Shown: positions 1 through 11,117 of the stretch, in pieces | Layout: the number at the start of each line of letters is the position of its first letter | How positions within the stretch are numbered: position 1 is the stretch's first letter | Source of the DNA: Marchantia polymorpha subsp. ruderalis | Taxonomy: Eukaryota; Streptophyta; Marchantiopsida; Marchantiales; Marchantiaceae | Length of the DNA: 64,000 bases | Assembly: GCA_037833965.1 (NCBI GenBank) | Contig: AP031352.1 | Location: 8,908,501-8,972,500, forward strand | Direction: 5' to 3' | Made by a program: the position numbers and the translations under genes | The notes under the pieces: generated by a model | The model's input: the letters and a program-made list of their open reading frames with translations, nothing else | What the model was told of the DNA's origin: nothing | The model's database searches: none

Positions 1-843
1 ATGGATGGTGGTAGTGGGAGTCGTGGAGTTCATACACGACATACTTCAGGTCACAAAGAGCCTAGTGCGCGAACACCACTGCCTTCATTTTCTGGCCAGC
101 CACAAGGACCATCATGTTGAACATGCGGAGGTGGTCATATGAGGAAGGATTGTCCCCAAGAGAGAGGGGGACAAACTTCACAGGCTAGGCCACGGCCGGC
201 ACATGTGACGTGTGATTATTGTTGTCCCCAGGGTCACCCTCGAGAGCGTTGTTTTGACCTTCATCCTGAGTTGAGATCTCGAGGTGGAGGTCGTGGCGGT
301 GATGCTCCATGAGGTCAAGGTGGCAGATGCGGTAGGGGTGGTAGAGGTACCGGTGCCATTGAGCGTACCGCAGCGAGTGCTACTTCAGCCACAGAGAACG
401 CTATGGCTGCTCGGATTGAGCAGTTGGAGCAGAGGCTTGCTGCTATGGTTGGTCTGGAGGCGAGCACTTCCACATCTTACGAGGGAAAGGATTTCTTCTA
501 TTTGGCCAGCGCAGCACAGGTGGAGGCATCAGTTGCAGTTACCAGAGGTGGTGCTCGCTCTTCAGAGCCACGTGGTGCGACAATGGAGTTGGATCCTCAG
601 AGAGGTGAGGGTGGATGGCAGGCCAGACTACCCCAGTCCTTTTTGTTGTCGGAGGTGAGCACGAGTTCGTCTATGAGACATGCACCGCCTAATGACACTG
701 GAGGTAGAACAGAGACTCTTACATCATCAGTTGTGAACGCGGACGTGCCATCCGGTGTAGTGATGCGGATAGCCACTTCAGTCTTGCGATCTTCATTGTT
801 TTCAGCCACAAAGTTGATGGACTCTGGTATTGATTTGGCTTGA
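1..843 (+). pseudogene. Gag nucleocapsid region and gag-pol linker (broken)
   Basis: The reading frame from base 1 carries two retroviral-type zinc knuckles. The second (211-252) is a canonical C-x2-C-x4-H-x4-C. The first (115-153) has the spacing C-x2-C-x3-H-x4-C and an in-frame TGA at 118-120 where Trp or Arg would be expected. Such knuckles bind the element's RNA during packaging. A Gly/Arg-rich stretch follows (about 265-400), and then a linker open from 403 to 843 with a short heptad-like segment (EQLEQRL). The start codon is off the window. It is a decayed copy; the calls rest on the Cys/His spacing and the position upstream of the protease. Confidence 0.75.
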
Positions 844-1089: not shown

Positions 1090-1496
1090 GGACAGGTGTA
1101 TGTTCCAGCCAGAGTTTTGCTAGATTCTGGTGCACACCCTTGATGTTGGGCAAGGCTGCATGCATTAATTTGGGTATTCGGAGGTCAGAGTTGAAACCTT
1201 GCCCATTCCAAATCCAGACTTCACTTGGTGGTGCCAGCGATAGGTCTTACTTTATGACCAGGGAGAGCATATCGGTGCATTTGAGGCATGATCATGCTCA
1301 TGATAACTCGCAATTTGGAGTTCGTGTGGTGGTTACATCAGAAGAGTCATATGATATGCTTGTTGGTGGAGCTGTGTTATATCCAATGGGTTTTTGGATG
1401 GACTATTGGACGGAGACTGCTGCCTATCGACCTAGTTGGCAGTCTGACGATGGACGTGTTAGCGAGCTGCAAGTGAGATTTATTTCTCGGGATTGA
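1090..1496 (+). pseudogene. Retrotransposon aspartic protease (broken)
   Basis: The motif LLDSGA is encoded at 1117-1134, the retropepsin active-site signature (D-S/T-G-A) that processes Gag-Pol. It is closely followed by a TGA codon in the same frame, then about 110 further residues continue to 1496 with the look of a pepsin-like beta barrel: ICLG-type turns, a VVVTSEESYDMLVGG segment resembling the 'iiG.d.L' second half of retropepsins, and a Trp-rich tail. It lies between the gag knuckles and the methyltransferase, as expected for the 5' part of pol. Non-functional as read because of the stop. Family-level confidence is moderate because only one catalytic motif is diagnostic. Confidence 0.7.
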
Positions 1497-1712: not shown

Positions 1713-2790
1713 TTGGTGAAGAAGGCTCGGAGTGAAGCCTCTTTACCAGCAATGGCAGAGAGAGCTTCAGGTGACCGACTAGTATGTGGCTCTAGCACGC
1801 TATCACCATTGGTTACTACACCTATTGCATGGGATTATTCCTCAGAGGGCGTTTGTTTGTTGGATCTGTTTGGTGGGATCAGCATAGGTTTGGCTGCAAT
1901 GTTGCAGTCAGGTATTCTCGTACGGAGATACTTGTATGTGGGGAAGGACGAGACTACACGTCAAGTCTCTTCATGACATGTTGCACAGTTGATGCAGTGT
2001 TTTCCTTTGTTATTGCCGCGATCAGTTGTTCGAGGATACCAGAAGGCGTTGACTTCAGACATTTCGTTGCTGGGGGCGCCGGACCTTGACTGCGTTGGCC
2101 ATATTGATATGGTGATTGCAGGCTGGCCATGTCAGGGACACACACGTGCTGGACATGGGACAGGGTTGCATGATCCCAGATCTCGGATGTTTTGGGAGAT
2201 GATGCAAGTGTTACGTCATCTGCAGGTGCAGCAGACACGTTCTCTAGCATACATTCTGGAGAATGTACCATTGTTGGGTGACACTCGAGTTCAATTGATG
2301 GCGAGTGTCCATCAGGTCCGAGCATGGATTGGATGTTGCAAGGGTTGGATCACGTGCTCATTGTGCACGTTTATGGTGGACTAACCTTTTGCCACGAGAG
2401 ATATTGCGTCATGCCTATGATTCTGTGCAGCGTGATCATACACTCACCGTTGACAATATCTTGGATGTTTTCCGACACTCTCAGGTAGTGAGAGTTGTTT
2501 ACAGGTGATTTTGGTGAACCTCGTAGGTCAGCCTCGGATGACTTTACCTACGTTGGTCAGTTATCCAACATCACATGCATATCGTGATGATGGACATGGA
2601 CTACTGTGAAACAGTACATGACATCAGTTGGTGGAGCCCAACGCTGATGAGAAAGAACATGCGATGGGATTTATGACTGGTGTGACCGCAACTACTTTAG
2701 TTTCAGAGGCTTCGTGTTGTTAGGTTTTGGGTCAAGCTATGGACCTGAACTGCTTGACGTGGATTGTGAGCTTGGATTTGGGGGAGCAAT
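1713..2790 (+). pseudogene. C5-cytosine DNA methyltransferase domain inside the retrotransposon (broken)
   Basis: The conserved motifs of C5-cytosine methyltransferases appear in order. Motif I (SAM binding) is LDLFGGISIG at 1860-1889. Motif IV is AGWPCQGHTRAG with the catalytic Cys at 2130-2132, followed by GLHDPRSRMFWE. Motif VI is LENVP (2256-2270). Motif VIII is SRAHCARLWW (about 2351-2380, shifted frame). A target-recognition-like segment begins near 2526, then comes a C-terminal MGF segment (about 2667) and a motif X equivalent GQAMDLNC (about 2729-2752). The domain would transfer a methyl group from SAM to cytosine C5 in DNA. Breaks: TGA at 1974-1976 between motifs I and IV, a frameshift or short deletion near 2330, TGA at 2607, TAG near 2720. 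It sits between protease and reverse transcriptase in the same orientation, so it belongs to pol, not to a host gene. Its single-block order resembles bacterial-type or DNMT/DRM-unlike enzymes; exact affinity needs phylogeny. Confidence 0.85.
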
Positions 2791-3085
2791 GCCGTTTGCG
2801 TGTTGATTTGGTGGTTAGTACATCACTTGTTAGCTCATTGCCTACTGGGACGGTAGTGGCAATGGCTGGGGGCGACAGGCGAGATATTCGTCATTCTTGG
2901 AGTTCATGGGACATGACGAGAGGACTCGCTAGAGTTGCAGCCCATGCAGTTGGAAAGGTTTCTCATGCGGAGGTTGCTACGAAGGAGGGTATAGAGACCC
3001 CTTCTTTGGAGGATGTGGCGTGGCAATCAATGAAAGTATCGCCTTCCTCTAGTGTGACTATGTAGGAATGGGAACCATTGATTGG

Positions 3086-3324
3086 TTCCTAGATCACAAG
3101 ACAAGAGAGGCGACAGTTGACACAATTCCTACGAGATCATAGGAATTGTTTTGCTTTCAGTATGAAGGAGTTGGGTGCTTTGATTTGACCCGGTATACGG
3201 ATAGAATTGGCTAGTGATATGCCAATCTTCTGTCGTCCTTATCGATATAGTGAGATGGAGAGGGATTTGATTCGGAGTAAGATTTTGGACTTACTAGAGG
3301 TTGGATTAGTGGAGTTATCGCATG
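3086..3324 (+). pseudogene. Reverse transcriptase, N-terminal part
   Basis: This stretch encodes the usual entry to gypsy reverse transcriptase: a FLRDHRNCFAFSMKELGAL block (the 'l..f.DvFa.s..dl' region), then PIFCRPYRYSEMERDLI and ILDLLEVGLVELSH, the conserved finger segment in which the primer strand is held. A TGA interrupts it near 3187. The frame runs into foreign sequence at 3325 and resumes at 6840 (HEYASAT), so the insertion between them cut an RT domain that was once continuous. Confidence 0.85.
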
Positions 3325-6300
3325 CTTAGTTGTAATGACAGACAAATACCAAAATGGAGCATAATGGTACAGATCCGTTCCCACGAGGACAGAAACAACC
3401 ACAAAGTCACAATTTGTCACAGAATAGCATTCTATTAAAGAGTTTCACTTCTTAGGCCAATGCCAATCCCAGAAGACACTACCCAGCTAGAGCCGAAGAC
3501 CCGCAGAGTAGTGCATAACCACACACACAACCTGAAACTTTTCCAAACAACGCATGTAGGAATCGCTTGCAACTCCACACTTATATTTCAGGGGGAAAAC
3601 TTCCCAGCATTGCATACATCTCAACTCACTGACCCGAATACTCAGACCCAAATTTGCTTAAATTCCAAGGAGCCTCGACTGCTTAGGACATTCGAGCCGA
3701 ATACTCACAACTCCTGATGCGGTAACTTCGACAAACAGGAGCGCATCGTGCCTTAGGCCTAGATCACACACCATCGCACAGACACAACGGATACACATTC
3801 ACAATCAAGACAAGCGAATAGACAGATGAGCCCCCCAAGGAAAGAGCCTTGGGCCTCTTTATTCACAATGGCAACTCTGGAATATCAACTGCTTGAGGCG
3901 AATCGGTCTCAGGGGCTGTGCTGTCCGATGTAACAGTTACGACATCGTCTGAACTACTCTCTACTCCTAATCTACGCAACACGTTTACAATCTCTACTTC
4001 TACATTATGGCGCACCTCATTCAATTCCTTTGAAATGAATTAACTAACTCTACAATCTGTTTGTGTCTTGCGGATCCGCCGCCCTTCGCGCTCATCAGCC
4101 GTTGCTCGAGTAGATCTAGCTTCAACCACTTCACCGAGTCCAGTTCCCACATCGTGAACCCATTCAGGCATTTCTCTAACCGCAATTTCAACACGTCGGT
4201 TGACTACTCCCTCAGCTGACGGTAGGCCTCCTCTGCCTTTTCCATTCTCCTTTACGACTCTTCTGATCTCATCTCCGCCTTCCCTAACTAATCTCGTAAC
4301 CGTCAACAGTAGGATTCAACCTTTATTTTACATTCGACCTCCGAAGATTTGGCCGACTCGCAATCTGCCAATTTCTTGGCCCAATCCGCTAACTCCTCTT
4401 CATGCTTCTGGTTTCCCGCCGACAGACTTGCTGATAGCTCCTCCGCACGTCGGAATTCCATCTCGCACTTCGCCTCAATCTCCAAAATTTTGCCACAAAG
4501 ATCTTCCTCCGCCGTCTTCGCCTTTGCGATTTTGCCCCGAAGTTCTTCGGCGATACGAGCTTCTTCGGCTCTTTGGGCTTCCAATGTAGCAAGTTCCTCG
4601 ACATGTTTCTTCTCTCGCTTCTCCGCAGTAGTGATCAACCGCTCCGATCTTTTGATTGCCGCCTCGTAAGCTTCTCTGAATTTCTCCAATCCCGCCATCA
4701 AATCCACTGTTACCTTCTGGGCATTTTCATTGGAGATACGAAGTCCTCCACAAGTCTCTTCCAACTCTGCACAACGCCGGGATTCCTTCTCTAGATTCAG
4801 CTGCAACACTTCACACTTAGTTTCCTTCTCCCGAAGCTAGTCTTCTCGCTCCCGCAATGCCGCCTTCACCGCCGCGCATTCGGATGACAAGGTTGCAGCT
4901 TGCTCCTGTGCCAATGCAGTTGCGGAATTCCACTCCATCTTTACTGCAATTGCTCTCTTGAGCTTCGTCCTATTCCTAATCATCGGTACATAGAATCTTG
5001 GCTCCTCCGATACAGCATACTTCACTCTCTTCCCATCCAAATACTTCAACAATGGAACTACACTATCCTGCAAGAATTCAGGAAATGTAATTTCTAATGT
5101 CTTCACATCTTCGTCCGAAGTCTTCTTCCCTTCTTCGGGTCTCACCTCTTCCACTGGAGATGTCGGCAGTGTAATGCCCTCGGCTTCTACCACCGTTCCT
5201 CCTATCTGTGCGACAATCTCCTCGCTCAAAGTGGACTCCTTCTCCGGGTCCTCGTTCATCTTCTTCTGTGGTGTCTCTTCGCCCCGCGCAGACCGCGTCT
5301 GCTCTGAAGACAGAGAAATCAGACATACCAATTCCGTTCCCTCCTTCAAAGATTCTGCCGGTATGTCTGTTGGGACTTCGACTGACACCTCTGAAGGTAC
5401 TTCTCTCTCCACAGGCCGCATTACCTCGCTAGTTGCGACTTCAGATGTGTTCACAATTGATGCCACCGTCTTCTCCACGCTGCTGTCCGACACCTCAACT
5501 ATCACCATCCTCCGATTTGCCCTCTTCTTTGGTCTTGCGCGAGCTCTGTGCTGCCTCGCTCCTCCTACATCCATATCCATACTTCTTACCTCGTGGGCCA
5601 ATTCCTCCTCGTCATCACTCACGACCTTCTTTCTCTTTGCCAATCGTCTCTCTGGCTTCTCCCGTCTCTGAACCACGTCCACCTGAACTGGTCCTCGAGC
5701 TGTCGTTTGTGTTGGGATTGAGGGGGGTTGGTTCTCGTCTTCGGTCCCTTCACTGGACTCAGCTGTTAGGATTTCCCGCTCTCTCGGAAATCGCTTCTCC
5801 TCCTCCCTCGTAAGCAATCCCATCCCTCAATAGAAATTCACCAAAAAGGGAGTGATGTGATTGGTCAAAGGTCCCGTCCACCGAAAGCCTGCATTCACCT
5901 TGACAAGATCGTGAAAGATCCTTCGCTGTCCCTTCAGAATGCGTTCGAAGAACTCTACTTGCCAGACCGTCACATAAGTCGTGCGCGCCGGCCGTAAGAT
6001 GTGCATGATACCCAACGCGATCGCCCTTCTCTTCGAATCTTTGTAATCGATAGTCTTCCATCCATTTGTTCCCTATCTTCCAGACTCGAAGAGAGGCCCG
6101 TAAGAGAATTCCTCGCTGCGCTTAAGTCCTACGCTATTCTTCTCAAATAGCAGATCTCCTTCGCTGCCCGCACAGGATCCCAGTACCTTCGTCCAATGTT
6201 CGATAGTCCACAGCATGGGATTACCGCGGAGCTCCTCGCCTTCGATCGTGCTCTTGTCCATTACCTCCTTGCAGATACTCGCCAAGACGCAATTCCAATT

Positions 6301-6839
6301 TCACAAAAGGAATTCAAGCCGCAGTTCACTCAACTCGCGTCTAAAGGGTCTCAATTCCTCGTAAGGCACATTCAAGGGAACCAATTTCCTCACCTTCTCA
6401 CTCTTCTTGAGCGCCATGTCTTCAATTTGCATTTCGCTAATCGCGGGCTGGCTCGATTTCACTTCCTCTCTCTTTCGCTCTTTCTTGCTCGATATCGTAA
6501 TGTCGGCGCGAAGTCTCCTCGTACTGCCTTTACCTTTGAAGCCCTAACATTGACTTCTCCCGCACCCAGTAGAACTCCCGACGCGTGCGAACATCGTCCG
6601 GCCCGTTGCATGATTTTAAATTGATTCCGATGTCTTCGCCGAAGACGTAGCTCTTCGTACATCCATAAAAGGCTGCGCCGAAGACACGAAGATCCGAAGA
6701 TCTTTGGACGTAGACGAATTCTAACTAATTCTATCATTTCTCCTAAGTAGCTGCTCATTCTAACTCTAACAACTACTTTCTAAACAAATATCTTTTAGTT
6801 TTAATGAATTTTAAAGAAAAATGAAAAAACTAGGCACCA
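3325..6839 (-). mobile_element. 3.5-kb insertion nested in the reverse transcriptase, flanked by CATG duplications
   Basis: RT coding sequence is cut between SH (3318-3323) and HEYASAT (6840). CATG occurs at both edges (3321-3324 and 6840-6843), which fits a 4-bp target-site duplication, or 5 bp with one change (GCATG/ACATG). The inserted block has base composition and coding strand unlike the host element and carries one long decayed minus-strand gene with leader and trailer sequence. No LTR pair, terminal inverted repeat or poly(A) tail was found by eye. The ends are CTTAGTTG on the left and GGCACCA on the right. The class of element is unresolved. Confidence 0.75.
3863..6417 (-). pseudogene. 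Decayed Marchantia-type coiled-coil protein gene (mst101(2)-like family)
   Basis: Reading on the minus strand from ATG at 6417 (MALKKSEKVRKLVPLN) the following blocks appear: NPMLWTIEHWTKVLG (about 6200), LGIMHILRPARTTYVT..FF (about 6000), GPLTNHITPFLVNFY, GMGLLTREEEKRFPRE (5823), an acidic Ser/Glu-rich linker, FLQDSVVPLLKYLDGKR (about 5030), a long Ala/Glu/Lys coiled coil (4809-4303), LEKCLNGFTMW (about 4170), and a tail ending at TGA 3863-3865 followed closely by AATAAA. Lesions include a one-base deletion near 6258, stops near 6088, 5826, 4836 and 4306, and more frame changes before the tail. The block order matches, from memory, an abundant Marchantia family annotated only by coiled-coil similarity; function unknown. 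The frameshifts and stops make this a dead copy. Confidence 0.7.
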
Positions 6840-7540
6840 CATGAGTATGCGTCAGCCACTGTCATGCCGGTGTACATGGCAACTACACGGATAGGCGCAT
6901 GTGTGGAGACTACTGTACTATCAATCGGCAGACGAAGTTTGATAAGTATGCCATGCCTACAGCTGAGGAGATCTTTGATATGGTGGGACATGCGAGGATT
7001 TTTAGTACTTTGGATCTGCGGGCAAGTTACCATCAGTTGCCAATTAGGGAGGAGGACAAGGCCAAGAGAGCGTTTTGGGGCGTCAACTCCCACGGCAAGG
7101 ATTGTTTGAATCAGTGGCGATTCTTACCCTTTGGGATGAAGAATGCACCTGACAAGTTTCAGAGGGTTATGGACAGAATCGTGGCGGGGCTGGATTTTGG
7201 CAGATGTTACATTGATGATACCTTGGTGTTTAGTGACATTGTGGAGCAACACCAGATACATTTGCAGATTGTGTTTGAGCGGTTGAGGGCTCATGGTTTG
7301 AGGTTACATCCCGGGAAGTGTAAGTACTTCCAGGAGAAGATTGAATACTTGGGTCATGTGATATATCCAGGTGGTTTAGGAGTTCACAAGCAAAGGTGGA
7401 GGCTATTGCACGCATTCCTCGTCCCACGGATGTGAGTAGAGTTTGTGCATTCATGGATTTGATGAACTACTATCGGAGGTATGTGAAGGGATTTAGTGCT
7501 ATAGCCAAGCATTTGAACCAGTTGCTGAAGTCAGATCAGG
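6840..7540 (+). pseudogene. Reverse transcriptase, palm and thumb
   Basis: This is the continuation of the RT domain after the nested insertion. Visible blocks are RRMCGDYCTINRQT (the 'R..vDyr.lN..t' motif), FSTLDLRASYHQLPI (first catalytic Asp in LDL), AFWGVNSHGKDCLNQWRFLP, PFGMKNAPDKFQRVMD (dNTP-binding region), YIDDTLVFS with the catalytic Asp pair (7208-7219), and HLQIVFERLRAHGLRLHPGKC plus YLGHVIYPGGL (thumb). The frame 6899-7435 is open and well preserved. After a one-base shift the sequence continues through 'NYYRRYVKGFSAIAK' to a TGA at 7543. It copies element RNA into DNA in family members that are intact. Chain-terminating lesions make this copy inactive. Confidence 0.92.
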
Positions 7541-7680: not shown

Positions 7681-8475
7681 GTAAGACCGGGTGTTGCACA
7701 TATGTACTAAGTCTTAGAAGTGGTCAAGTGATTAGGGATAATTAGCCAAGACATAGCTAAGTCTAGCTAGTTATGACTAAACTAGTTAGTTATAACTAAG
7801 TTTATCTAGTCATGACTAAGTTTAGCTATGATGTCTATAGTTGGCGGAAAAATTAGCGGAGTTCTAGAAGAGTATAGTGAGCACTTCTATTTTGTCTTCT
7901 AGAAAGGAGTGAGAATTTCTATTTTGTCTTTTACAAAGTTCTCGATTCCAATGGATTAGATATTTGACTAGAAGCTTGGATTTGATTGATTTGACTCAAT
8001 ATATTAAAGATGATTAGCTAGACTAAGTCTAATGTTGACTCAGTGGTTAAGAAGCTTGTAGAAGTTTAAAAGCTTCCAATGACATGTCGCCACCTCAACC
8101 TTGGATTGCGAAACTTCTACAAGGTTTAGGTAGGCAAATGGCATGTTGCCACTTAGAGAGGGTTAGTCAAACTTACCTTGGTAATAGTAAGTTAGGAGGA
8201 ATTACCACATGTTACTATGATAACTTCTCAAGTAGTATAAATAGAGAGGTAGAGTAGCAACTCTCAAGTGAGTTTGGAGAGTCATGTGTGAGGACTTGTT
8301 TCATATATGAAAGAGTGACCAATTTTCTGTACCTTGGAGTGTCGATGTGTGTGAGTTGGAGTGCTACCTTGAGTGAGTGTGTGTTTGAGTTATGAGTGTG
8401 AGGATGAATCCTATTTTTTTAGAACCATGATGCACTACCGCAAAGCCATCAGAGGTAAACTTGAGTGAGAGTCAG
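7681..8475 (+). mobile_element. LTR-like insertion in RNase H
   Basis: RNase H reading is lost at about 7681 and resumes at about 8475. The insert starts TGTAAGACCGGGTGTTGCAC, is rich in TAGCTA/TAACTA runs, and has a TATA box with short leader (TATAAATAGAGAGG at about 8236), the layout of a plant LTR promoter on the + strand. Near its right end CCATCAGAGG (about 8448) recalls the tRNA-Met primer-binding site of copia elements. No clean target duplication or matching second copy was found, so a solo or truncated LTR is the best reading. Confidence 0.5.
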
Positions 8476-9114
8476 CTCGGAGGTTGCATTGCGGTGTTGA
8501 CGCAGCGTGATGATGAGGGCAAGGAGTTTGTGGTTGCGTACCCTAGTCGTTCGAACAATGCAGCGGAGTCGCGGTATAGTTCGTACGAGGGAGAGTGCTT
8601 GGCAGTGGTGTGGGCTGTGGCACACTTCAGGTGTTATTTGTTTGGTACGCAGTTCACCCTTGTTACTGATCATCAGCCGCTCAAGTGGTTGATGGAGTCC
8701 GACAAGCTCATAGGAAAGCTTGCATGATGGGCTCTCATCTTACAAGAGTACGACTTTCAGGTAGTGCATAGACCTCGAGTTGTGAACCTGGATGCAGATG
8801 GTTTGAGTCGGAACCCATGCACTAGCCAGGAAGATGACACTGGAGCTAGATGGCATGGTGAGGTTGATGAGGAGATGGTGCCTGGTTCGCATGCATCTGT
8901 CTTCATGTGTTGGTTACGTGGAAACTCTAGCAAAGAGTATCATCCGACATCTTACTCTAGTCAGAGAGTAGATGGTCAATCTTCAGATCCTGAGGTTGAG
9001 GATGGTGGTGTGGATCAACCTGATGTTCACGATGATGCATTGGTGTTGGAGTTCCTACGGACCAGCATGGTGCCAAGCACAGTGGGTGCTAAGGAGCGAG
9101 ATCGTGTTCTCTAA
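8461..9114 (+). pseudogene. RNase H domain and tether
   Basis: RNase H resumes with AVLTQRDDEGKEFVVAYPSR, then AAESRYSSYEGECLAVVWAV (catalytic Glu), YLFGTQFTLVTDHQPLKWLM (catalytic Asp in TDH), and after a TGA at 8725-8727 continues WALILQEYDFQVVHRP and LDADGLSRNP, the standard gypsy RNase H ending ('..adaLSR'). This enzyme removes the RNA strand during reverse transcription. The open stretch 8764-9114 beyond it is an acidic tether before integrase. The TGA replaces an Arg-type codon (CGA), again a C-to-T change. Confidence 0.88.
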
Positions 9115-9132
9115 CGGGCGAAGACATATCGA

Positions 9133-10238
9133 TTGGAGGGATCACATGTTCTCCGAGTGTGGGAAGAGGGTAGGGTACGAGTAGTACCACATCCAGCTAA
9201 GAGAGCACGCATTGTGAGGCATGCTCATGAGGAGTTGGGACATTTTGGAGTGAAGTGTACATACATCTTACTCCTTGGTCACTATTGGTGGCGTGGTATG
9301 CATACTCAGGTACAGCAGTTAATATCACGTTGCATAGTTTGTGATCGGATGAGGGCATCGTTCAATGCCCCGACACCAGAGTTACATCCATTATCCATCA
9401 TGGGGTTGGGTTACCGTTGGAGTTTGGACTTTGTTGGACCACTACCTTTGACTATACGACATCATCGGTATGTGTTGGTCATGGTAGAGCATTTCTCCAA
9501 GTGGATTGAGTTACCTGAGTGGATTGAGGCATTACCTGACAAGGCAAGTGAGGGAGTAGCATATGCTTTTCTTGACAGCGTACTTAGTCACTATGGTGCA
9601 CTAGCTGAGTTGTTGATCGATCAGGGGACGGAGTTTCAGGTCTTGTGTGACAAGGCATTGATTGATCATTGGACCACGTCGCGAGATCTGTAGAGGCGGA
9701 TGGTTTAGCTAAACGTGTTGTACAGACGATGAAGAGGGCATTGCGCAAGTATGGCCTGCAGAAAGGTTATTTTGGGGACTGGGATATTCAGTTACCATGG
9801 TTGGCCATGGGATATCGGTTCAGTCGTCAGGCATCCTTGGCTTACTTCTCACCATATTTTCTATTGTAGGGCCGAGATCTAGACTTGCCAACATCGATTC
9901 ATCGTGAGTCTAGCGAGGTGGTGAACCTTGATGACTCGAACATGTGGGTGAGAGTGTGTTCTCAACGTGCACAGCTCTTTTGAAGAGTTATGCCTGCAGT
10001 GAGTGAGAATCTTGCGATTGCTCAACATAGAGATACGTTGCGATATGCAACCATTCGAGGAGGAGGTTATCGACCATCGGTTCTTAGATTCCATGTGAAA
10101 GACTACGTCTATCTACAGCAGACTGCACTGACGACATTGGATTTGACGGCGGGACGCACAATCTTGCGAGTGCGAGATGTGTTATCTTCTGGAGTTCTTC
10201 TATTGGAGGGTCGTGACGGAGTTGTTTAGAAGTATCAT
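9133..10238 (+). pseudogene. Integrase (HHCC, DDE core, GPY/F-like tail; broken)
   Basis: The N-terminal zinc site is seen as HEELGHFG and CIVCDRM (about 9218-9347). The catalytic core follows with WSLDFVGPL (first Asp), HHRYVLVMVEHFSKWIELPE, and LLIDQGTEF (second Asp, about 9618). The third catalytic residue, normally Glu in 'GLAERV', is Lys here (AAA at 9711-9713), and a frameshift lies just before it near 9690. The core ends at LPWLAMGYRFSRQAS..SPYFLL with a stop at about 9867. The C-terminal part (10060-10230) has FHVKDYVYLQQ and TILRVRDVLSSGVLLLEGRDG, matching the integrase SH3-like or GPY/F module. It would insert element cDNA into the genome; this copy is catalytically dead. Confidence 0.9.
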
Positions 10239-10472
10239 GTGCGTAATTGTGCACCATGCCACCTCCTAAACGTAGATGGCACTATGGACCCAAGCTTAGC
10301 AATAATACGTGTTGGCTTGAGGTGCATGCTGTGTGGGTCAGCTCGTCAGGCGGCCCGTATGTTGGTGTGTGATAGGTGTTCTAGGGGATGGCACATGTCG
10401 TGTATGACTCCACCTATCGATGTTATTCCGGCTGGACGATGGGTTTGTACTCGATGTACTTCAGAGGGGTAG
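10239..10472 (+). pseudogene. PHD zinc finger at the C-terminus of pol
   Basis: Directly after the integrase tail the frame encodes VDGTMDPSLA, then a perfect PHD spacing from 10323 to 10457: C-x2-C-x11-C-x2-C-x4-H-x2-C-x14-C-x2-C, with the conserved Trp two residues before the last Cys pair (RWVCTRC) and the core CDRCSRGWHMSC. The frame stops at TAG 10470-10472. PHD fingers read histone H3 tails (K4 methylation state in many cases). At the end of an integrase this would be a candidate targeting module, a role chromodomains play in other gypsy lineages; that role is inference. The finger itself is intact in this copy although a stop near 10228 separates it from the integrase frame. Confidence 0.85.
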
Positions 10473-10625
10473 ATGACTTGATTCTCACATGTTATGAATT
10501 GCAGATAAGCCACTAACGATGAGGCGACATAGCACCCGACCTACTGATTCACGCACCCACGAAGGTGTATAACATGTAATCGTAGATTGGGCTATCTGGG
10601 AGTTAGAGGGACCTGACCGCCAGCT
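10473..10625 (+). other. Untranslated spacer between pol and polypurine tract
   Basis: No coding signal is seen. The stretch lies between the PHD stop codon and the purine-rich tract next to the LTR, as expected for the 3' untranslated part of an LTR element. Confidence 0.5.
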
Positions 10626-10636
10626 AGGGGGGCGAG
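10626..10636 (+). other. Polypurine tract
   Basis: An 11-base run AGGGGGGCGAG (one C) lies just upstream of the LTR start. In LTR elements such a tract survives RNase H and primes plus-strand DNA synthesis. Position and composition support the call. Confidence 0.65.
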
Positions 10637-10639
10637 TTA

Positions 10640-11015
10640 TGACATTTGAGTGTGTACTCTCTCGCGCCTTATATGTGTGTATGTGTATGGGAGTAGCATG
10701 TCAGCGATGTAGAGTGTATGGCGATATGTATTCGCACGACAGCTGTCATGTGATTCAGTCTATTATTAAAAATAGTAGTCGCATAGGGTTTCAGGTCGTA
10801 GGGTATAGGTAAGAAGGCGACTCGAAGAACGTCAGTTCTTCGAGTCGAGCCTAACGAACCTAACGAGTTGGGAGTAGTGCCCGTGAACATCGACCTGTAC
10901 TCTCCGAGTGTGGAGTGGGTTTGGCTTGACTATGTTTTTGACGGTGACAGTTTCTTGCCAGTAAGGTAATCAGACCGACGAGTTTCCAGTGGGGAAATCC
11001 CGTACCTTTCAGTTG
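10640..11015 (+). repeat. 3' LTR of the gypsy element
   Basis: The repeat begins TGACATTTGAGTG next to the polypurine tract and contains a TATA-like element in CGCGCCTTATATGTG (about 10663-10677). At 11016 the first 102 bases of the same repeat recur (three mismatches), so the repeat unit is 376 bp from start to start. The end is TTTCA at 11007-11011 or a few bases later. Because the 5' LTR is outside the window, LTR status is inferred from position, the TG start and CA near the end, and the partial tandem copy. Confidence 0.75.
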
Positions 11016-11117
11016 TGACATTTGAGTGTGTACTCTCTCGCGCCTTATATGTGTGTATGTGTATGTGAGTAGCATGTCAGCGATATAGAGTGTATGACGA
11101 TATGTATTCGCACGACA
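11016..11117 (+). repeat. Truncated tandem copy of the LTR
   Basis: 102 bp matching 10640-10741 with three differences, two of them G-to-A. The match stops abruptly after CACGACA. It is the remains of a second LTR abutting the first, from recombination or a tandem insertion, later truncated. Confidence 0.85.

Follow-up and report, generated by a model that had tools for sequence, protein, structure and literature searches.

A decayed Ty3/gypsy element at the locus

The window analyzed here is a 64,000-nucleotide stretch of Marchantia polymorpha DNA (C3:8908501-8972500), and the genome searched was the 241.5-Mb, nine-contig assembly. Near the start of the window lies a decayed pseudo-element of the Ty3/gypsy type (Table 1). 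A gag CCHC knuckle, the order protease (PR), reverse transcriptase (RT), RNase H (RH), integrase (IN), and a DDE integrase are all present, as expected for the gypsy element that a preliminary description of this DNA had claimed. The gag knuckle carries a TGA in the window copy at the position where P0122 and P0126 have W. A Pfam search with the protease piece (1023-1496) gave no match, and the rve core of the integrase scored 27.6 bits against PF00665, below its 32.6 cut-off. The insertion that splits the RT has CATG at both sides, with bounds good to a few bases. It holds a minus-strand frame of 329 aa with no Pfam match. A third insertion, upstream of the window (L036 2262-3086), is 81% identical to window 7683-8490; these two form one repeat family, both within the same decayed element.

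Table 1. Features of the element in the window, with the basis for each assignment
Feature	Position in window	Strand	Basis
gag C-terminal CCHC zinc knuckle, C*TCGGGHMRKDC	109..162	+	Translation; P0122/P0126
Aspartic protease, VLLDSGA; YDMLVGGAVLYPMGFWMDYW; frame broken	1099..1420	+	Translation; motif recurs in other copies
DNMT3-class C5-cytosine methyltransferase, with stops and two frame changes	1839..2790	+	PF00145 E 1.9e-9, homologs, motifs; class from intact relatives
ORF1/ORF2 junction, TGG-CAA-TCA in window copy	3021..3029	+	Comparison with 30 other copies
Reverse transcriptase, N-terminal part	3081..3324	+	Translation; homology to ORF2 of other copies
Later insertion within RT, unrelated sequence	3325..6839	.	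Homology to other copies breaks here
Reverse transcriptase, remainder	6840..7440	+	PF00078 E 2.8e-27
Second later insertion, ~0.8 kb	7683..8490	.	L037 homology stops at 7682, resumes at 8491; self-match of stretch
RNase H, C-terminal part (rest precedes insertion)	8491..8727	+	PF17917 E 5.6e-27, frame 8431-8727
DDE integrase: H2C2 zinc domain and rve core	9115..9870	+	PF17921 E 1.5e-14; PF00665 E 3.5e-6
PHD finger, integrase C-terminus	10323..10457	+	PF00628 E 2.1e-11
Probable polypurine tract	10625..10633	+	Sequence; same place in E37/E40
Terminal repeat B1	10635..10741	+	Repeat comparison
Terminal repeat A2	10742..11010	+	Diverged A1 off-window, about C3:8903028-8903253
Terminal repeat B2, element end	11011..11117	+	96% identical to B1

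The methyltransferase (MTase) domain was then read directly. Motifs I (DLFGG, ~1863-1877), IV (PCQ, ~2127-2135), VI (ENV, ~2259-2267), and VIII (GSRAHCARLWWTN, ~2347-2385), an EPNADE..MGF block (~2634-2672), and motif X (GQAMDLN, ~2730-2750) are all collinear on the + strand, which is the order and strand that had been described for motifs I, IV, VI, VIII, and X. An in-frame reading of 1977-2384 matched PF00145 at 37.9 bits (cut-off 22), and a protein search with a 331-residue window reading, in which X was placed at every stop or break, returned 135 proteins at E<=1e-3, the best at 1.7e-140. These matches bear out the C5-cytosine MTase claimed for 1713..2790 and rule out a chance resemblance. 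The end of that span held, but its start did not, as the domain begins at ~1839, ~125 bases downstream of 1713. Two changes of frame, near 2330 and near 2510, interrupt the reading, as do in-frame stops (TGA at 1974 and others), and this MTase copy is therefore a pseudogene. The domain is a genuine but broken C5-cytosine methyltransferase.

Class of the methyltransferase and a DNMT3-like host gene

The nearest solved proteins to a profile of ten relatives (profile A1) were DNMT3A/B, with scores of 1.1e-20 for DNMT3A, 6.9e-11 for DRM, and 1.4e-6 for HhaI; a single-sequence search found DNMT3A at 2.5e-11. A structure model of the relative P0002 (pLDDT 89.7) had 185 fold matches at E<=0.001, of which the best 50 were DNMT3 entries (best 6.6e-20), with a target TM of 0.80-0.85 for most catalytic-domain chains among those 50. 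The motif order is linear and not DRM-permuted, with PCQ and ENV. By rank among profile and predicted-fold matches, the element MTase is assigned to the DNMT3 class; the same ranking ruled out a DRM or bacterial origin.

A genome search for the MTase family scored 123 of 290 candidates, and of six loci that were read, four were element copies. The best place in this search, L058 (G000:C6:12459429), is a host DNMT3-like gene, two exon pieces of which match DNMT3A at 2e-30, and L059 has a DRM-like motif order. C3:19066770 and C2:6442483 may also be host genes. L058 rules out the idea that the element supplies the sole DNMT3 of Marchantia and that the host has none. Compared with the element profile, it shows 35% identity across 155 columns, and the donor of the element MTase may have been a DNMT3 gene. 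In the available text of PMC5784723, five enzymes are listed for M. polymorpha (MpMET, two CMT, and two DRM); neither the element family nor L058 is in that list, though they may be listed elsewhere.

Copies in the genome and relatives in other species

Searching the genome with the MTase domain gave 643 first-look candidates. All 124 that were scored matched at E 1.4e-188 or better, and the family counts are lower bounds, with only the best candidates scored. The preliminary description had considered that other copies might lack the domain; every scored place carries it, though the search query was the domain itself. It had also proposed looking for further, intact copies, and 25 of the 124 scored places have an open frame of 1351-1365 codons in which the match is stop-free. 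DNA was read for 31 distinct copies (30 loci and L038). The MTase is full length without a stop in 18 of them; L031 and L034, among the other 13, were left out solely for length. Three copies each carry two labels (L006=L037, L007=L040, and L035=L039). Along 323 aa, the C5 copy and the domain of the M. polymorpha protein Mp_4g09160 are 100% identical, which confirms the liverwort host that had been proposed.

In protein searches, the named relatives came from M. polymorpha, M. paleacea, Calypogeia fissa, Riccia sorocarpa, and Sphagnum species, and many metagenome proteins were further relatives of the element MTase. The PR-MTase order is also found in proteins of M. polymorpha and Calypogeia fissa, and the Sphagnum gene models, which are incomplete, represent parts of it. 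One of them, S. fallax P0143, spans gag to integrase; its MTase is missing the PCQ stretch and has no PF00145 match. Two distant relatives, P0104 and P0106, keep most motifs; their identity with the Marchantia domain is 42% and 38%, respectively. A search of a viral collection returned five loci that were 26-29% identical and were without element DNA. A tree was built from 35 rows of the family plus two viral outgroups, a set without MET1, CMT, DRM, DNMT3, and DNMT5. Two Marchantia rows joined those of Sphagnum and some others (98/91), apart from two Calypogeia rows. This separation from another liverwort may reflect paralogy or horizontal transfer.

We also searched the genome by RT, scoring 150 of 3559 candidates. 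Three RT-bearing places were chosen for having no MTase listed alongside; one has an interrupted MTase, one has only its last 19 residues, and one has none within 2 kb, a view in which deletion derivatives and relatives without an MTase look the same.

ORF layout and a conserved stop codon

Four 10-kb stretches (L037, L038, L039, and L040) were read for layout. In the first three, ORF1 is an open frame of 1358-1362 codons that encodes gag with CCHC, protease, a linker, and the MTase, and ends in TAG. ORF2 follows directly after this TAG in the same frame, and its 1042-1045 codons encode RT, RNase H, integrase, and a PHD finger. L040 agrees in layout, except that one stop interrupts each ORF. 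The TAG at the junction is present in 30/30 copies and is followed by CAACCA in 26, CAACTA in 2, and CAACAA in 2, so that 28/30 fit CARYYA. The window copy reads TGG-CAA-TCA here, against TAG-CAA-CCA in those 26 copies. Tobacco mosaic virus has UAG-CAR-YYA as its readthrough context, and the conserved TAG is probably a readthrough stop. The MTase sits on the Gag side of this TAG, at the C-terminus of ORF1. Readthrough is usually inefficient, and if that holds here, the MTase would be made in Gag-like excess over RT. The order PR-MTase-RT given in the preliminary description was thus recovered in other copies, with the correction that the MTase precedes the conserved TAG at the end of ORF1 and does not lie within pol.

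At the other end of the polyprotein, all 150 scored places (of 478 genomic candidates) had the integrase tail together with the PHD finger. No chromodomain appeared among the matches of two integrase-tail pieces; the PHD finger occupies that place.

Terminal repeats and 5' segments

The ends of the element do not follow the standard LTR arrangement. In E37, a repeat A1 stands at the 5' end and B1-A2-B2 at the 3' end, with A1/A2 99.0% and B1/B2 100% identical. E40 has repeats of the same type (99.65% identical), and in E39 A1 equals A2 over 293 bases. The A1 of the window copy has diverged (77.5% over 267 columns). The complete A-coding-B-A-B set is therefore present in E37, E40, E39, and, in diverged form, the window copy, and the arrangement of A at the 5' end and B-A-B at the 3' end rules out a standard LTR element with identical LTRs at both ends. 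E38 has a single B at its end and no A within the 3.5 kb read upstream. Outer ends are TG..CA in E37 and E40, and their four-base flanks, GGTT and CCAT, are repeated; E39 is flanked by ACGC/ACTC without an exact repeat. The B1-A2 join reads CA-GC-TG, which looks like a circle junction, and a probable polypurine tract lies upstream of B1. The split repeats with this internal junction and, in some copies, a 13-base self-complementary site following A1 were noted at L037 8000-8523 and L041 1191-1500. In E37, the 13 bases that follow A1 are exactly complementary to part of A. Self-priming is known from Tf1, and by analogy this complement would allow a Tf1-like self-priming. The motif follows A1 in six of the 10 stretches examined (E37, E40, E43, E44, E45, and E55) but turned up in none of E38, E39, E56, and the window copy.

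Between A1 and the gag leader lies a stretch of ~1.6-3 kb in E37, E39, E40, E43, E44, E45, E55 (where it extends past the fetched DNA), and the window copy; A1 was not in view in E38 and E56. Five of these stretches were compared mutually and had nothing in common save short, weak matches between V44 and V45. Five (V37, V39, V40, V44, and V45) were searched in the genome. V45 corresponds to 11 collinear blocks at one locus, with a GT-AG intron dropped at 9 of the 10 joins; on this exon pattern, it is a spliced host transcript, which we take to resemble MND1. A Pfam search with a 100-aa piece of V45 had no match. V37 and V39 contain pieces of several loci. V44 includes 1.3 kb from a single locus, and its flanks recur in another element copy around a different middle part. 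For V40 there are two matching loci, and almost all of it is shared with a further place. Introns were checked base by base in V45 alone, and the other segments are known as loci rather than as genes. Many places in the genome also carry parts of V37, V40, V44, and V39, which makes some of each element leader. Template switching is the likely mechanism behind the 5' segments. Differing foreign segments between A1 and gag were seen at L045, L041, L042, L044, and L053.

Selection and decay

Between subfamilies, comparison of 16x2 stop-free MTase copies (32 pairs) gave dS 0.207, dN 0.028, and dN/dS 0.137; within one subfamily, dN/dS was 0.221 (120 pairs). For the pair L037/L038, dN/dS was 0.16 in gag, 0.24 in the protease part, 0.13 in the linker, 0.15 in the MTase, 0.64 in the ORF1 tail, 0.11 in RT-RH, and 0.10 in IN-PHD; the MTase ratios of the subfamily comparisons are near the last two. 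Six MTase motif patterns are kept in 25 to 29 of 30 copies, including GWPCQ in 27 and LENVP in 29. The MTase thus appears, from these substitution patterns, to be under purifying selection. In the same pair, dS was lower in the MTase (0.21) and RT (0.29) than in gag (0.62), and recombination between subfamilies is therefore likely.

At 6302 sites that could be compared, 396 changes are private to the window copy; 233 of these are C>T or G>A, and 42 run in the reverse direction. Changes of the C-to-T type per site were 61/585 at CG, 61/589 at CHG, and 111/2173 at CHH. This excess, highest at CG and CHG, suggests that the window copy was probably methylated in host fashion.

What the methyltransferase may do

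It is close to certain that these copies form a large gypsy family of Marchantia with the layout gag-CCHC-PR-DNMT3-type MTase, TAG, RT-RNaseH-integrase-PHD, enclosed by A-...-B-A-B repeats. A mobile element in a land plant thus seems to encode a DNA-methylation writer of its own. To the full reading, in which this identity is combined with methylation of cDNA in the particle before integration, we give a probability of about 0.5. Lying upstream of the stop, the MTase would be made in Gag-like amounts and would enter the virus-like particle. There, before integration, it may methylate double-stranded cDNA of the element itself, a step that we put forward tentatively and rate a little below even. 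A new copy could then arrive pre-marked and either do less damage to the host or pass as old chromatin, which would favor long-term spread. The PHD finger of the integrase would recognize a histone mark at the target, much like the chromodomain of a chromovirus. In the accessible parts of de Mendoza et al. 2018 (PMC5890265), related retrotransposon DNMTs are reported to methylate CG de novo. Against the full reading stand the results in the same text that SymbioLINE-Dnmt produced no DNA methylation in yeast and that the Klebsormidium methylome is not unusual. The existence of L058 also counts against it, as does the CG/CHG decay, for which host MET1/CMT-type methylation is an explanation without the element enzyme. 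Selection on transposon copies can, moreover, reflect any function of the polyprotein, structural ones included.

The enzyme could instead act in the nucleus, methylating resident copies of its own family or rivals and thereby serving copy-number control or superinfection immunity. The size of the family (643 candidates), the CG/CHG-type decay of the window copy, and a PHD finger that could tether element proteins to chromatin all agree with this. The decay is, however, what plant MET1/CMT would be expected to leave, and the Gag-side position points to particle stoichiometry; we regard a nuclear role as rather unlikely. Less probable still is a role outside DNA, in nucleic-acid binding or in methylation of the genomic RNA or primer. 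Purifying selection would fit any nucleic-acid function, and the text available from de Mendoza et al. (PMC5890265) suggests an RNA role for the LINE enzymes, discussing RNA methylation for SymbioLINE-Dnmt; the retention of GWPCQ and LENVP and the DNA enzymes that are the nearest solved relatives speak against it. That the MTase is a passenger, either an inert piece of the host genome or a host gene mistaken for transposon sequence, is scarcely credible. The window copy is itself broken, but the PR-MTase order is common to several species, open stop-free frames recur among the scored places, and dN/dS between subfamilies is low.

A bolder extension of particle methylation is a long shot. The PHD finger and the Gag-level DNMT3 would form a reader-writer pair that pre-methylates cDNA in the particle, while host transcripts are repeatedly spliced into the 5' region. 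Jumps would then deliver pre-methylated copies of host mRNA and might seed homology-dependent silencing of the parent gene.

MTase-bearing gypsy elements are abundant in the model liverwort and present in Sphagnum. With Marchantia a tractable organism, the question of why a transposon carries a methyltransferase becomes directly testable.

Comparison with known systems

In the literature searched, outside which most subscription papers fall, we found no description of MTase-bearing retrotransposons in land plants; a 2025 survey names, in its accessible part, only "streptophytes and dinoflagellates". The closest known system is KnitGypsy-Dnmt3 of Klebsormidium nitens, in which, according to the portions of de Mendoza et al. 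2018 (PMC5890265) at hand, a Dnmt3 lies within an LTR gypsy polyprotein with Ka/Ks<0.2. The same text describes the A-coding-B-A-B arrangement for DIRS elements and says that it holds for KnitGypsy-Dnmt3. Compared by description, the Klebsormidium and Marchantia elements share a Dnmt3-class enzyme in a gypsy polyprotein, the A-coding-B-A-B repeats, and purifying selection. They differ in that the Marchantia family occurs in land plants (liverworts and Sphagnum) at hundreds of candidate places, and in its Gag-side MTase before a conserved TAG, integrase PHD finger, and foreign 5' segments. "PHD" occurs 0 times in the main text of PMC5890265 as available to us, figures aside, and the matches listed in our protein searches included no Klebsormidium-named protein.

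Since the repeats match the description of KnitGypsy-Dnmt3, we place the Marchantia family as a land-plant version of that kind. The shared repeats and Dnmt3 class suggest, on the description of the Klebsormidium element, an older common capture. The preliminary description had the MTase captured by a land-plant element; a land-plant gypsy element does carry it, but the capture was probably dated too late. The Klebsormidium case is itself regarded, in the available text of PMC5890265, as an acquisition independent of that in dinoflagellates.

The dinoflagellate elements SymbioDIRS-Dnmt3 and SymbioLINE-Dnmt of Symbiodinium, as far as the accessible text of PMC5890265 describes them, also have a DNMT in a retrotransposon ORF, and SymbioDIRS-Dnmt3 shares the split-repeat layout. 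They use a tyrosine recombinase or LINE machinery, whereas the Marchantia element, in this respect unlike DIRS elements generally, has a DDE integrase, and their host has CG methylation across most of its genome. Chromoviruses, in the descriptions available, likewise have a chromatin-reading module at the integrase C-terminus, which is a chromodomain there and a PHD finger in the Marchantia element. An orchid Ty3/gypsy element with an m6A demethylase domain (PMC9289625, available portion) is a further plant gypsy with an acquired enzyme of nucleic-acid modification; that enzyme is an RNA demethylase, and the element is recent and from an angiosperm.
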